A stretch of DNA of 64,000 nt. Source: Massilia sp. YIM B02763. Lineage in GTDB: Bacteria; Pseudomonadota; Gammaproteobacteria; Burkholderiales; Burkholderiaceae_D. The notes under the pieces are model-generated. The model saw nothing but the letters and a program-made list of their open reading frames with translations, was not told the DNA's origin and did no database searches. Each line of letters opens with the position of its first letter. Position 1 is the first letter of the stretch. Both the position numbers and the translations under genes were made by a program. The DNA lies in assembly GCF_030412015.1 (NCBI RefSeq), contig NZ_JASNRD010000001.1:372001-436000 (forward strand), written 5' to 3'. This document shows, piece by piece, positions 37,924 through 41,143 of the stretch.

Positions 37924-39252
37924 TCATGCTTCGCGCAGGGCGCCGGCCACCAGTTCGCACAGCACGTCGGCCGTCACCGGCTTGACCAGGTAGCGGTCGA
38001 AGCCGGCCTGCAGGCCGCGCTCGCGGTCGCCCGGCTGGCCGTAGCCGCTCAGCGCGATGGCGTAGGGCATGGCGCCGCCGGACCCGGTGCGCAGCGCCTG
38101 CATCAGGCCCAAACCGTCCAGGCCGGGCAGGCCGATATCGCACACGATCACGTCCCAGGACCGGGACTGCGCCAGCGCCAGCCCGCCGGGGCCGTCGTGG
38201 GCGACGGCGACGTCGTGGCCGTCGGCGGCCAGGCAGCCGGCCATGGTCAGGCAGGCGTCGACATTGTCTTCCACCAGCAGCACGCGGCGCGGACCGCCCT
38301 GCGCGGCGGCGGCGGCGGGCGGCTGCAAGGCGGCGGGTGCCGCCTGCGCGGCCGTCCGCGGCAGGCGCACGACGAAGCGGCTGCCCTGGCCACTGCCGGC
38401 GCTGCTGGCGTCGACCGTCCCGCCGTGCATGCCGACCAGGTTGCGCACCACGTTCAGCCCCACGCCGAGGCCGCCCTCGGATCGCGCCAGCGAGCGCGGT
38501 CCCTGCGTGAAGAGGTCGAAGATATAGGGCAGGACGTCGGGCGCGATGCCGATGCCGTCGTCCTCCACGTGCACCGTGGCCGTGCCGTCGGCCGCCTGCA
38601 CGGCCAGGCGCAGGCGCCCGCCGTCGCCCGTGTACTTGGACGCGTTGGCCAGCAGGTTGGTGAATACCTGGGCCAGGCGCACGCGGTCGCCCTCGACCGT
38701 CACGTCCTCGGGCGGCAGCGCCAGGTCGAGGGACTGGCCCCGTTCGGCGATGCGCGGCTGCACCGTCTCGACGGCGTGGCGCAGCACCTCGGCCAGCGCC
38801 AGCGGCTCGGGCGCCAGCGTGATCTTGCCGCTGCTGATGCGCGCGGCGTCGAGCAGATCGTCGAGCAGGCGCGCCATGTGCTCGACCTGGCGCCCCACCA
38901 CGCGCGCCAGCCTGGCCTGCTCGGGCGCGGCGCCGCGTTCCAGCAGCGAGGCGGCCATGGCGATCGGCGACAGGGGGTTCCTCAGCTCGTGCGCCAGCAT
39001 GGCCAGGAACTCGTTCTGGCGGCGGTTGGCCGCCTCGGCGTCGTCGCGCAGGTGCTGGGCGTTGACCGTGGCCAGCACCAGGTGCTCGTTGGCTTCGCGC
39101 AGCTGGGCGACCAGGGCCTGCAGCTCGCCGTGCTCACGCGCGGCGGCGCGCAGGGCGGCAACCTCGGCTTCCAGTGCGCCCAGCCGTTCCTGCAAGGAGG
39201 CGCCGTCCTGCGCCCTGCTGTCGTCCATGCCCGTCACCGCCGCGTCGCTCAT
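37924..39252 (-). CDS. Hybrid histidine kinase / response regulator, third gene of the KaiC-like operon
   Basis: 442 residues, soluble. N-terminal coiled coil (20-80; no PAS or other sensor domain), then HisKA with phospho-His H88 in [18 protein letters not shown]. HATPase follows with [22 protein letters not shown] and [10 protein letters not shown]. An Ala/Pro linker leads to a C-terminal receiver with [14 protein letters not shown]372 in [13 protein letters not shown], and KPV. Starts 13 bases after the KaiC-like gene with a good GGAGG site, so it is the last of a three-gene operon. Having no sensor domain of its own, it may take its signal from the KaiC-like ATPase (inference). Confidence 0.92.
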
Positions 39253-39265
39253 GCCGCCTCCCGTG

Positions 39266-40720
39266 TCAGCTGCGTGGCCAGCCGGTCAACACGCCCTCGT
39301 AGGGCACCGGCCGTTCGTCGACCTCGATGCCGCTACCGGTGATGCTGTATTCGCGCAGTTCGCTGCTGTGGTCGACGCCGCGGACCTTGACCACCATGAG
39401 GAACTTGCGCAGCGCGCCGCCCACTTCGGCGAAACGCATCGCGACCACGGCGTCGGCCAGGAAGGCCAGCTCGTGCGGACTGGTGCGCAGGCTCGGCCGG
39501 GGGTCGTCCATGCCCGCCGTCACCAGCACCGTCACGCCGCGCTTGGCCAGCGCGCTGAGGGTGCGGAACACGGTCTGGCGCAGGTCGGCGCGCGCCTCCG
39601 GGGCCAGGTACAGGTCGAATTCGGACAGCGAATCGATCACGACGCGGGTCGCGCCGGTGCGGTCGATCGCGCTGAGCATCTCGTCCAGCAGTTCCTCGAC
39701 GCTGAGCGACAGCGAGCGGGTCTCGACCACGGTCACGCTGCCTTCCTGCGCCATCCGCGCCAGCGCCGCGTTGCGCAGGCGCGCGGTGCCCTTCTCGAAG
39801 AACACGGCCACGCCCTTCTCGCCCAGCGCGGCGCCGGCCTCGAGGAAGCGCGTGCCGAGCACGGTCTTGCCGATGCCGGTCGGGCCCGTCACCAGCAGCG
39901 CGTGGCCCTGCGGCACGCCGCCCAGCATCAGCTTGTCCAGGCCCGGCACCCCTGTCGGGATACGGCGCGGCTTGACGTCGACCTGGGTGCCCGGCAGGCG
40001 GTCGTCCGCGAGCGGCGGCAGCTCGCGCGGATACACGCGGATGCCGTCGTCCGTGATGCGCATCGTGTGCGCGCCCGTCATGTGCGCCTGGCCGCGCATC
40101 TTGAGCACGCGGATCTTGCGCAGCATCGAGTTGTCGTCGCTGGCCTGGGCCAGCGCCAGCATGCCGTCGGCGACCGTGATGATCGGATTGGCCTCGACGT
40201 CGGCGTGCGTGTATTCGCCGATCAGGAAGGTGGTGGCCTGCCAGGTCGCCATGCGCGAGCCCAGCTCCTGGATGAAGTGCTGCAGGTGGGTCAGGCCCTC
40301 GTTGCCGCCGCGCGCGGTCTGCACGACGGAGCGGAACGAATCGACGAACACGAGGCCCGGCCCGAAATCCTCGACCTCGTGCATGATCCGTTCCAGCACG
40401 CCGTCGAAGTGGCCGGCGCGCAGGTCGTCGGCCAGGTTCACGTAGCGGACCACGGGGCCGACCTTGTCCGTGTCGAAGAACGGGAACTGCTGCTGGTAGC
40501 GCAGCATCTTCAGCGGCGGCTCGCCCAGCACGGTGAAGAACAGGGCGCGCCGCTGGGGATTGGCCAGTGCAAACATGATCTGGTGCGCCAGCGTGGTCTT
40601 GCCGCTGCCGGGCGCTCCCGCGATCAGCGTGAAGGAAAACTCGGTCAGGCCGCCGCCCAGGAGAATGTCGAGTCCCGGCACCCCCGTGCTGAGCATCCCC
40701 AAGCGTACTTTGTCGGTCAT
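39266..40720 (-). CDS. Double-domain KaiC/RAD55-like ATPase
   Basis: 484 residues, two RecA-type domains in tandem as in KaiC. Domain 1 has a Walker A GAPGSGKTT (35-43) and Walker B LVFVDS (123-128). Domain 2 has Walker A GPTGIGKT (279-286), VFFEKG where KaiC has its catalytic glutamates, and Walker B VVIDSLSE (360-367). The segment matching the KaiC autophosphorylation site reads HELAFLAD (416-423) and lacks the Ser-Thr pair, so it is probably an ATP-driven switch and not a KaiC-type clock kinase (inference from alignment by eye). AGGAG lies eight bases before the ATG. It abuts the upstream small gene (stop next to start) and is 13 bases from the kinase gene. Confidence 0.92.
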   Translation of the reverse strand: MTDKVRLGMLSTGVPGLDILLGGGLTEFSFTLIAGAPGSGKTTLAHQIMFALANPQRRALFFTVLGEPPLKMLRYQQQFPFFDTDKVGPVVRYVNLADDLRAGHFDGVLERIMHEVEDFGPGLVFVDSFRSVVQTARGGNEGLTHLQHFIQELGSRMATWQATTFLIGEYTHADVEANPIITVADGMLALAQASDDNSMLRKIRVLKMRGQAHMTGAHTMRITDDGIRVYPRELPPLADDRLPGTQVDVKPRRIPTGVPGLDKLMLGGVPQGHALLVTGPTGIGKTVLGTRFLEAGAALGEKGVAVFFEKGTARLRNAALARMAQEGSVTVVETRSLSLSVEELLDEMLSAIDRTGATRVVIDSLSEFDLYLAPEARADLRQTVFRTLSALAKRGVTVLVTAGMDDPRPSLRTSPHELAFLADAVVAMRFAEVGGALRKFLMVVKVRGVDHSSELREYSITGSGIEVDERPVPYEGVLTGWPRS

Positions 40721-41143
40721 TTACTTTTGCTCCTGTGCTTCTTGCGGCCCATCCTGGCCATCCGGTTCCTTCCCCGCGTCGGCCAGCAGCCGCGCCGTCA
40801 GCCCTTCCCCGATCAACGCCGAGAGCAATCTGGTGAACGTCGCTAGCAGTTCCTCGTTGGCCGCGGCGGCCTGCTCCGCATTCACGCCCGCCAGGTCCCG
40901 TTCCAGCGTCGCCAGCAGCGCCTCGATCGAGGACCGCTCGCCGCCGACGCTCAGCCAGCCGTGGCGCGGGGCCAGCATGCGCACGGCGCGGCCGAACAGC
41001 GCGCACACGCCGCTTTCGCCGATCAGTCCGGCGAGCTGGCCGGTGATGCGGCGCCACGGCTGCAGCAGGCGCGTTCTCGGGCCGGCCATAGGCGGCACAG
41101 GCGCGGTCCTGTCGGGTCGGCGCTGGTTATCATCTCTTTCCAT
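40721..41143 (-). CDS. Small protein encoded upstream of the KaiC-like ATPase
   Basis: 140 residues from the ATG at 41143; a TTG at 41173 is in frame but less likely. Its stop codon directly touches the kaiC-like start. The N-terminus is basic and disordered-looking. A central helical region (LLQPWRRITGQLAGLIGESGV) follows, then HGWLSVGGERSSIEALLATLERDLAG, a second helical region (EQAAAANEELLATFTRLLSALIGEGLTARLLADA), and an acidic Gln/Glu tail. I do not recognise the family. Position suggests a partner or regulator of the ATPase. A perfect TATAAT lies 60 bases upstream of the start. Confidence 0.75.
   Translation of the reverse strand: MERDDNQRRPDRTAPVPPMAGPRTRLLQPWRRITGQLAGLIGESGVCALFGRAVRMLAPRHGWLSVGGERSSIEALLATLERDLAGVNAEQAAAANEELLATFTRLLSALIGEGLTARLLADAGKEPDGQDGPQEAQEQK

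Follow-up and report, generated by a model that had tools for sequence, protein, structure and literature searches.

A three-gene locus in a Massilia genome

A 64,000-nucleotide stretch of Massilia sp. YIM B02763 DNA (hereafter the window), part of a 5.9-Mb genome (G000; G and L numbers denote genomes and loci throughout), was analyzed for a candidate signaling system. Open reading frame (ORF) calls place three genes in tandem on the minus strand, encoding a small protein, a KaiC-like ATPase and a hybrid histidine kinase. The small gene (40721..41143, minus strand) encodes 140 amino acids (aa) of no known family, predicted to be all-helical with five helices between residues 24 and 124. The ATPase gene (39266..40720, minus strand) encodes a 484-aa protein with two RecA-type domains, and the kinase gene (37924..39252, minus strand) a 442-aa protein in which no sensor domain was found. 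Massilia are the closest named relatives of the window ATPase, whose own record was possibly left out. The TAA stop of the small gene touches the ATPase ATG at 40720, and a 13-base spacer separates the ATPase and kinase genes; the abutting layout described in an earlier note on this DNA, stop on start followed by a 13-base gap, matches the ORF coordinates. Because the gene order is conserved across genera, the three-gene arrangement is, as far as sequence can tell, more than chance.

Both ATPase domains look intact, but the KaiC phosphorylation pair is missing

The Pfam KaiC family (PF06745) matches the ATPase in two stretches with 218.3 bits against a curated cut-off of 26.6, and the alignment of the protein with solved KaiC proteins spans both domains. 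The cut-offs of the KaiC equivalog models were missed (TIGR02655, 134.2 against 546.25; NF006799, 215.8 against 408). Motif conservation was counted over 122 distinct ATPase sequences, the window sequence included. The Walker A motif of domain 1, GAPGSGKT (residues 35-42; 40595..40618, minus strand), has K41 and T42 in 122/122 sequences and G40 in 121, with one gap. In the domain 2 motif, GPTGIGKT (residues 279-286; 39863..39886, minus strand), G284 and K285 are found in 122/122, and residue 286 is Thr in 98 and Ser in 24. No variation is seen at the Walker B residues Asp127 and Asp363 or in the Lys-Arg pairs at 207/209 and 445/447. For the catalytic Glu, one of two adjacent columns is retained in each domain (E67 in 122/122, E309 in 118/122).

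By alignment with the solved KaiCs, the KaiC phospho-site position of the window protein runs from S414 to A419-F420 (39461..39481, minus strand). The columns that we take to represent the phosphorylated pair contain mostly Ala, Ser or Cys followed by Phe or Tyr (Ala in 81/122, Phe in 89/122; A419-F420 in the window), and the column presumed to hold the third KaiC phospho-site is Ser in 107/122 (S414 in the window). The same alignment bears out the earlier reading that both Walker A sites are intact and that the phospho-site region is 'HELAFLAD'. As the nucleotide-binding motifs are near-invariant and the phospho-pair columns altered, the protein is, on its aligned motifs, a double ATPase that looks intact but lacks the pair phosphorylated in KaiC. 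It ends at most two residues beyond the end of its alignment with the solved KaiCs and therefore has no counterpart of their C-terminal tail. The Massilia genome contains no match to the KaiB family PF07689; among control genomes 6/14 gave a match, with one over the cut-off.

These properties bear on whether the locus could be a rudimentary KaiC timer of the hourglass type with a kinase output, as proposed for a Ramlibacter kaiC-histidine kinase pair. The KaiC fold and the neighboring kinase fit such a timer, and passages of a 2011 paper describe kaiC genes near histidine kinase or GGDEF/EAL genes in Ramlibacter and others (PMC3164672). Against it speak the lost phospho-pair, the missed equivalog cut-offs, the absent tail and the lack of a KaiB match in the genome; moreover, KaiCs unable to phosphorylate two residues are considered, in a passage of that paper, to be unlikely to sustain timing (PMC3164672). 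We regard a timer as most improbable.

In a phylogenetic tree the small-linked KaiCs and the other KaiCs (31 and 8 sequences, respectively) are split by a single branch with support of 100/100, at which, the method warns, long branches meet. The Massilia genome encodes two more pairs of a KaiC and a hybrid kinase, which belong to other KaiC clades and have no small-protein match (L241:2471-5819, L242:4070-7223).

The small protein is a near-constant companion of one KaiC clade

Searches of Pfam, NCBIfam, PADLOC, PHROGs, PDB sequences and PLSDB plasmids returned nothing usable for the small protein. The five-helix prediction was obtained in two models, with pLDDT of 77 and 76. For the first model, structural searches gave a best E of 0.7 with Foldseek and a best Z of 5.7 with VIA-align, values that are not informative for helical bundles; the KaiA C-terminal helical domain was not among the listed matches, none of which was significant. 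KaiB is thioredoxin-like; no strand-containing fold of that type was predicted for the small protein, which is all-helical in both models and has no KaiB family match. The many globin rows in the structural search were discarded, and weak Pfam matches of single family members (best DUF6178, E 8e-5, in 1/36 members) were taken as chance. Residues W30, G42, R52, L107, L110 and G112 are invariant in 36 sequences; across 115 sequences G112 alone is invariant, and the other five are conserved at 90% or more.

The small-protein and ATPase match lists of 120 relatives were compared by eye. All 72 listed ATPase copies with at least 47% identity, 13 of them divergent copies at 47-53%, have a small-protein match directly upstream, against 0/9 of the other listed KaiCs (30-31% identity). 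The small protein was matched in 65 of these genomes (in G064 and G069 by stop-containing fragments only, which were not counted as genes) and the ATPase in 63 (E <=1e-40); in G066 the only ATPase match has 30% identity. When the order was sampled evenly with 250 genomes, the small protein (E <=1e-4) and this KaiC (E <=1e-100) were each found in 10 genomes and together in 9 (Fisher 1e-14). In G481, the KaiC genome without an initial small-protein match, a refined profile recovered a diverged small gene at the expected position (58 bits), making it a tenth joint genome; small-protein searches can therefore miss diverged members. In G096, the only small-only genome of the 250, the small gene lies at a contig edge. 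More widely, the small protein was found in 6 of 274 genomes of the class, in 5 of them beside this KaiC, and was matched in 5 of 398 genomes of the phylum, one of these matches (G930, E 8e-4) being unconfirmed by the refined profile. All genome searches score the best first-look candidates only. Weak matches inside longer frames (E 0.004-0.01; G032, E 2e-5), many of them near the locus, were likewise unconfirmed by the refined profile; they were fetched for six genomes, and three more lay in loci already sampled.

Gene context was compared in 80 named loci, the best 80 among relatives in named genomes, of which there are at least 576. The small gene is present in 79, and the remaining locus, L138, is truncated within the ATPase by a contig edge. 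Among the 79, the small gene of L187 consists of the C-terminal third only, and those of L160 and L172 are read in two frames. Measured from the small stop to the ATPase start, the spacing ranges from -16 to 0 bases across the 79 loci, with two of the starts set by profile and not at an ATG. Absence of the small ORF beside orthologous ATPases, which would have spoken against the three-part system put forward earlier, was looked for and not encountered in any of the 72 listed clade copies. Elsewhere the small gene can be damaged: in L231:1680-4607 (G500) it is present as N- and C-terminal pieces approximately 2.4 kb apart, as by insertion, with an ATPase and a kinase downstream that are recognized over their length, and L085:1861-4026 (G064) is a degraded locus in which hybrid kinases are followed by remnants of the small gene and ATPase.

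The adjacent signaling enzyme varies and usually carries a common helix

The window kinase has the HisKA (residues 79-142; 38827..39018), HATPase_c (residues 188-300; 38353..38691) and receiver (Response_reg, residues 324-435; 37948..38283) Pfam domains of a hybrid histidine kinase, all on the minus strand. Its residues 1-78 have no Pfam match, in agreement with the earlier description of a kinase without a sensor domain; residues 19-78 resemble a coiled coil by eye only, and the most hydrophobic 19-residue stretch (mean hydropathy 1.3) lies within the receiver part. No sensor domain was found by Pfam in 10 other partner proteins.

Domain maps of the loci reveal several arrangements around the small gene-ATPase pair. 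The window type, in which a hybrid kinase follows the pair, is accompanied by loci in which the hybrid kinase precedes it (for example, L071-L073, L075, L151, L152, L155, L157) and by others with a HisKA_3 kinase before the pair (L074, L077-L083). The pair is followed directly by a GGDEF-EAL gene in L148, L169, L187, L207, L234 and L235, and by GGDEF alone in L206 and also in L182, a locus truncated at a contig end. In L069 and L165 the gene that follows combines GGDEF with a kinase, and in L160, L162, L167, L170, L172, L184 and L205 a kinase comes first and GGDEF-EAL second. By adjacency rules of our own, 76 of the 80 named loci have one or more neighboring kinase or GGDEF genes on the same strand; L168, L180 and L185, which have none, lie near contig ends. 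Loss of the kinase linkage, a second outcome that would have told against the earlier proposal, was thus looked for and not seen, and with 72/72 listed clade copies and 76/80 loci the idea of an undescribed small protein as part of a conserved signaling system is well supported. The proposal of a histidine kinase as the output is too narrow, since some genomes have a cyclic di-GMP (c-di-GMP) enzyme as the partner instead. With six output labels placed on a 31-ATPase tree, parsimony required 10 output changes against a mean of 15.7 for shuffled labels; the labels were set by hand from the domain maps, and loci with a kinase and GGDEF-EAL were counted as kinase.

The window kinase and the GGDEF-EAL and GGDEF partners elsewhere have in common a 36-residue helix ahead of the catalytic part, which we call LINK. 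In the window kinase it occupies residues 43-78, just before HisKA (39019..39126, minus strand). The shared core is LREANxxLVxAT, more fully L[RQ][EQ]ANxxLVxATxxA, and the core lies mostly 28 or 42 residues ahead of the HisKA start and 32-35 ahead of the GGDEF start. An unrelated row obtained by regular expression (L161:1648-1755) was dropped before the LINK alignment A3. LINK is present in 78/85 adjacent signaling ORFs against 11/39 others in the same 80 loci, and a profile built solely from rows outside these loci gave 77/85 against 11/39. Each of the 7 adjacent ORFs without LINK faces a LINK-bearing ORF across the pair. By strand, LINK occurs in 88/102 same-strand signaling ORFs against 1/22 on the opposite strand, the one being in L181. 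In the 250-genome sample LINK was found in 10 genomes at E <=1e-3 (11 at 0.01), and 8 of the 10 carry the small protein or this KaiC (Fisher 2e-11). The Massilia genome has one LINK match, the window kinase, against 124 HATPase_c matches. Beyond the earlier note, what is new, judged by domain maps and profile matches, is that the output varies and that LINK is common to most adjacent signaling genes. The HisKA_3 kinases looked as if they carried an N..LV helix, which the LINK profile did not recognize (8/8 at <=0.2 bits). Two GGDEF-kinase proteins (L069:6846-8288, L261:154-1632) have two LINK helices, one ahead of GGDEF and one ahead of HisKA.

The genes might instead travel together only as an inherited or moved operon block, with separate roles for kinase and ATPase, and the dominance of related genomes in the sample would suit that explanation. 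It is quite improbable in our judgment, since enzymes of other types take the place of the output, and its side of the pair changes, with LINK retained in most cases, a pattern hard to explain without shared function.

The small domain occurs fused to, or directly before, c-di-GMP enzymes

In G273 the small domain (98.6 bits) forms the N-terminus of a 364-aa GGDEF protein, and the KaiCs of this genome belong to other clades than the small-linked KaiC. L151 and L155 each contain an additional small gene directly before a LINK-GGDEF-EAL gene. The fusion and these extra genes suggest that the small domain is an input element for an output enzyme, and the covalent link in the fusion may act as if in place of LINK. 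A LINK-like helix seen by eye in the fusion was unsupported, as 2029 of the 4968 reported shuffles score as well.

The small protein could alternatively serve the ATPase as a chaperone, assembly factor or inhibitor and have no role in signaling, with the ATPase alone contacting the kinase. A dedicated folding partner of this kind would explain the tight gene junction and the 1:1 pairing equally well. It would not be expected to be fused to GGDEF in a genome whose KaiCs are of other clades, nor to be encoded directly before GGDEF-EAL genes as in L151 and L155, and we consider it unlikely.

A proposed input unit for sensorless signaling enzymes

We propose, with a probability of roughly 0.55, that the small protein and the KaiC-like ATPase constitute an obligate input unit that controls a sensorless signaling enzyme in trans through LINK. 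A KaiC-type ring probably carries the small helical protein, and in the window genome the enzyme under control would be the hybrid histidine kinase. The state of the unit would be set by the nucleotide state of the ring, through ATP binding or hydrolysis, and not by KaiC-type Ser/Thr phosphorylation. A change in nucleotide state would alter how the pair engages LINK, the most likely site of action, and LINK would relay this change to HisKA or GGDEF by altering the pair of helices that governs kinase or, in other genomes, GGDEF/EAL activity. From the kinase the phosphoryl group would pass to the receiver in the same protein; because no output domain follows that receiver, onward transfer or protein contact would have to come next. 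The sequences as compared here support the pairing, the tight junction, the ATPase motifs, the lost phospho-pair, the changing outputs, the shared LINK and one small-GGDEF fusion; physical contact, ring form, signal direction and the role of ATP are elements of the proposal that we infer.

Several observations weigh against this proposal. The 80 loci are the closest of the 576 or more relatives and many belong to a single family, which makes them non-independent. Gaps of 6-22 bases separate the small and ATPase genes in some second copies of the system (L077, L079, L080, L081, L083), and the HisKA_3 kinases paired with second copies lack LINK in 8/8 cases (profile score <=0.2 bits). In L145 both flanks are present, yet neither a kinase nor a GGDEF gene lies next to the pair. 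A PAS-like stretch was recognized by eye in the 749-aa kinase of L230 (G481), and therefore not every partner is sensorless. In the 250-genome search, no LINK match was found in the system-bearing genomes G096 (at a contig edge), G481 and G511, and a profile test detected no LINK in the small-GGDEF fusion. Conversely, LINK is present on GGDEF-EAL proteins of G513 (L259:1999-5736) and G540 (L258:3494-5257), in which no small-protein match was found; these may be orphan outputs, the assemblies may be incomplete, or the helix may serve a different purpose there.

A broader form of the proposal, which we advance tentatively and as somewhat less probable than not, is that of a general bacterial input unit, in which a KaiC-family ring with a dedicated helical adaptor plugs in trans into varied sensorless enzymes, among them histidine kinases, diguanylate cyclases and phosphodiesterases, via a portable linker helix. 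If true, gene exchange alone would suffice to couple one sensor-ATPase to either a phosphorelay or a c-di-GMP output.

In the cyanobacterial clock a kinase reads the ATPase, and KaiC homologs are widespread outside cyanobacteria, mostly without a known job. The window system resembles the cyanobacterial KaiABC clock in its double RecA-type ATPase with Walker A/B motifs and Lys-Arg fingers, but lacks the phospho-pair and the C-terminal tail, is without a KaiB match in its genome, and has a partner that is predicted to be all-helical. Archaeal KaiC-like ATPases have been proposed as signaling hubs (Makarova, Galperin and Koonin 2017, as cited in a passage of PMC5847659), and there too a KaiC-family ATPase is linked with varied signaling domains; the window system is instead bacterial, with a fixed small partner and a kinase or c-di-GMP output. 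A likeness is also seen to the Ramlibacter tataouinensis contexts, in which a KaiC homolog lies near a histidine kinase or GGDEF/EAL gene, and to a third KaiC group of the 2011 paper, which has poorly conserved phospho-sites and 'AF' among its named pairs (passages of PMC3164672). Unlike the system described here, a fixed helical partner and a shared linker helix are not described in those passages, and the kinase N-terminus of its second group is KaiB-like or receiver-like, not LINK; hypothetical proteins ('HP') are named only in a figure legend (PMC3164672). Across titles, starts of abstracts and passages of the open-licence literature, neither the small protein nor LINK was found described.

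The comparison assigns to one KaiC clade a fixed protein partner, a 36-residue docking candidate and interchangeable outputs, and makes the question of what a clockless KaiC does directly testable in Escherichia coli. A portable helix might place unrelated signaling enzymes under one ATPase, which would connect KaiC-type ATPases with c-di-GMP control.

Putative promoter and neighboring gene

The earlier note had placed the operon behind a perfect TATAAT. The motif is present upstream of the small gene (41204..41209, minus strand) as a possible, weak -10 box with no -35 found; the promoter claim itself is weak because TATAAT occurs twice in the 64-kb window against 0.82 expected and a promoter scan of the window called no minus-strand promoter there. 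A GGDEF-EAL-type gene at 33831-36596 (plus strand) of the window gave no LINK match in the LINK profile search of the Massilia genome. In L086-L093, loci from close relatives, the relatives of this gene are retained at the same position and lie on the opposite strand.

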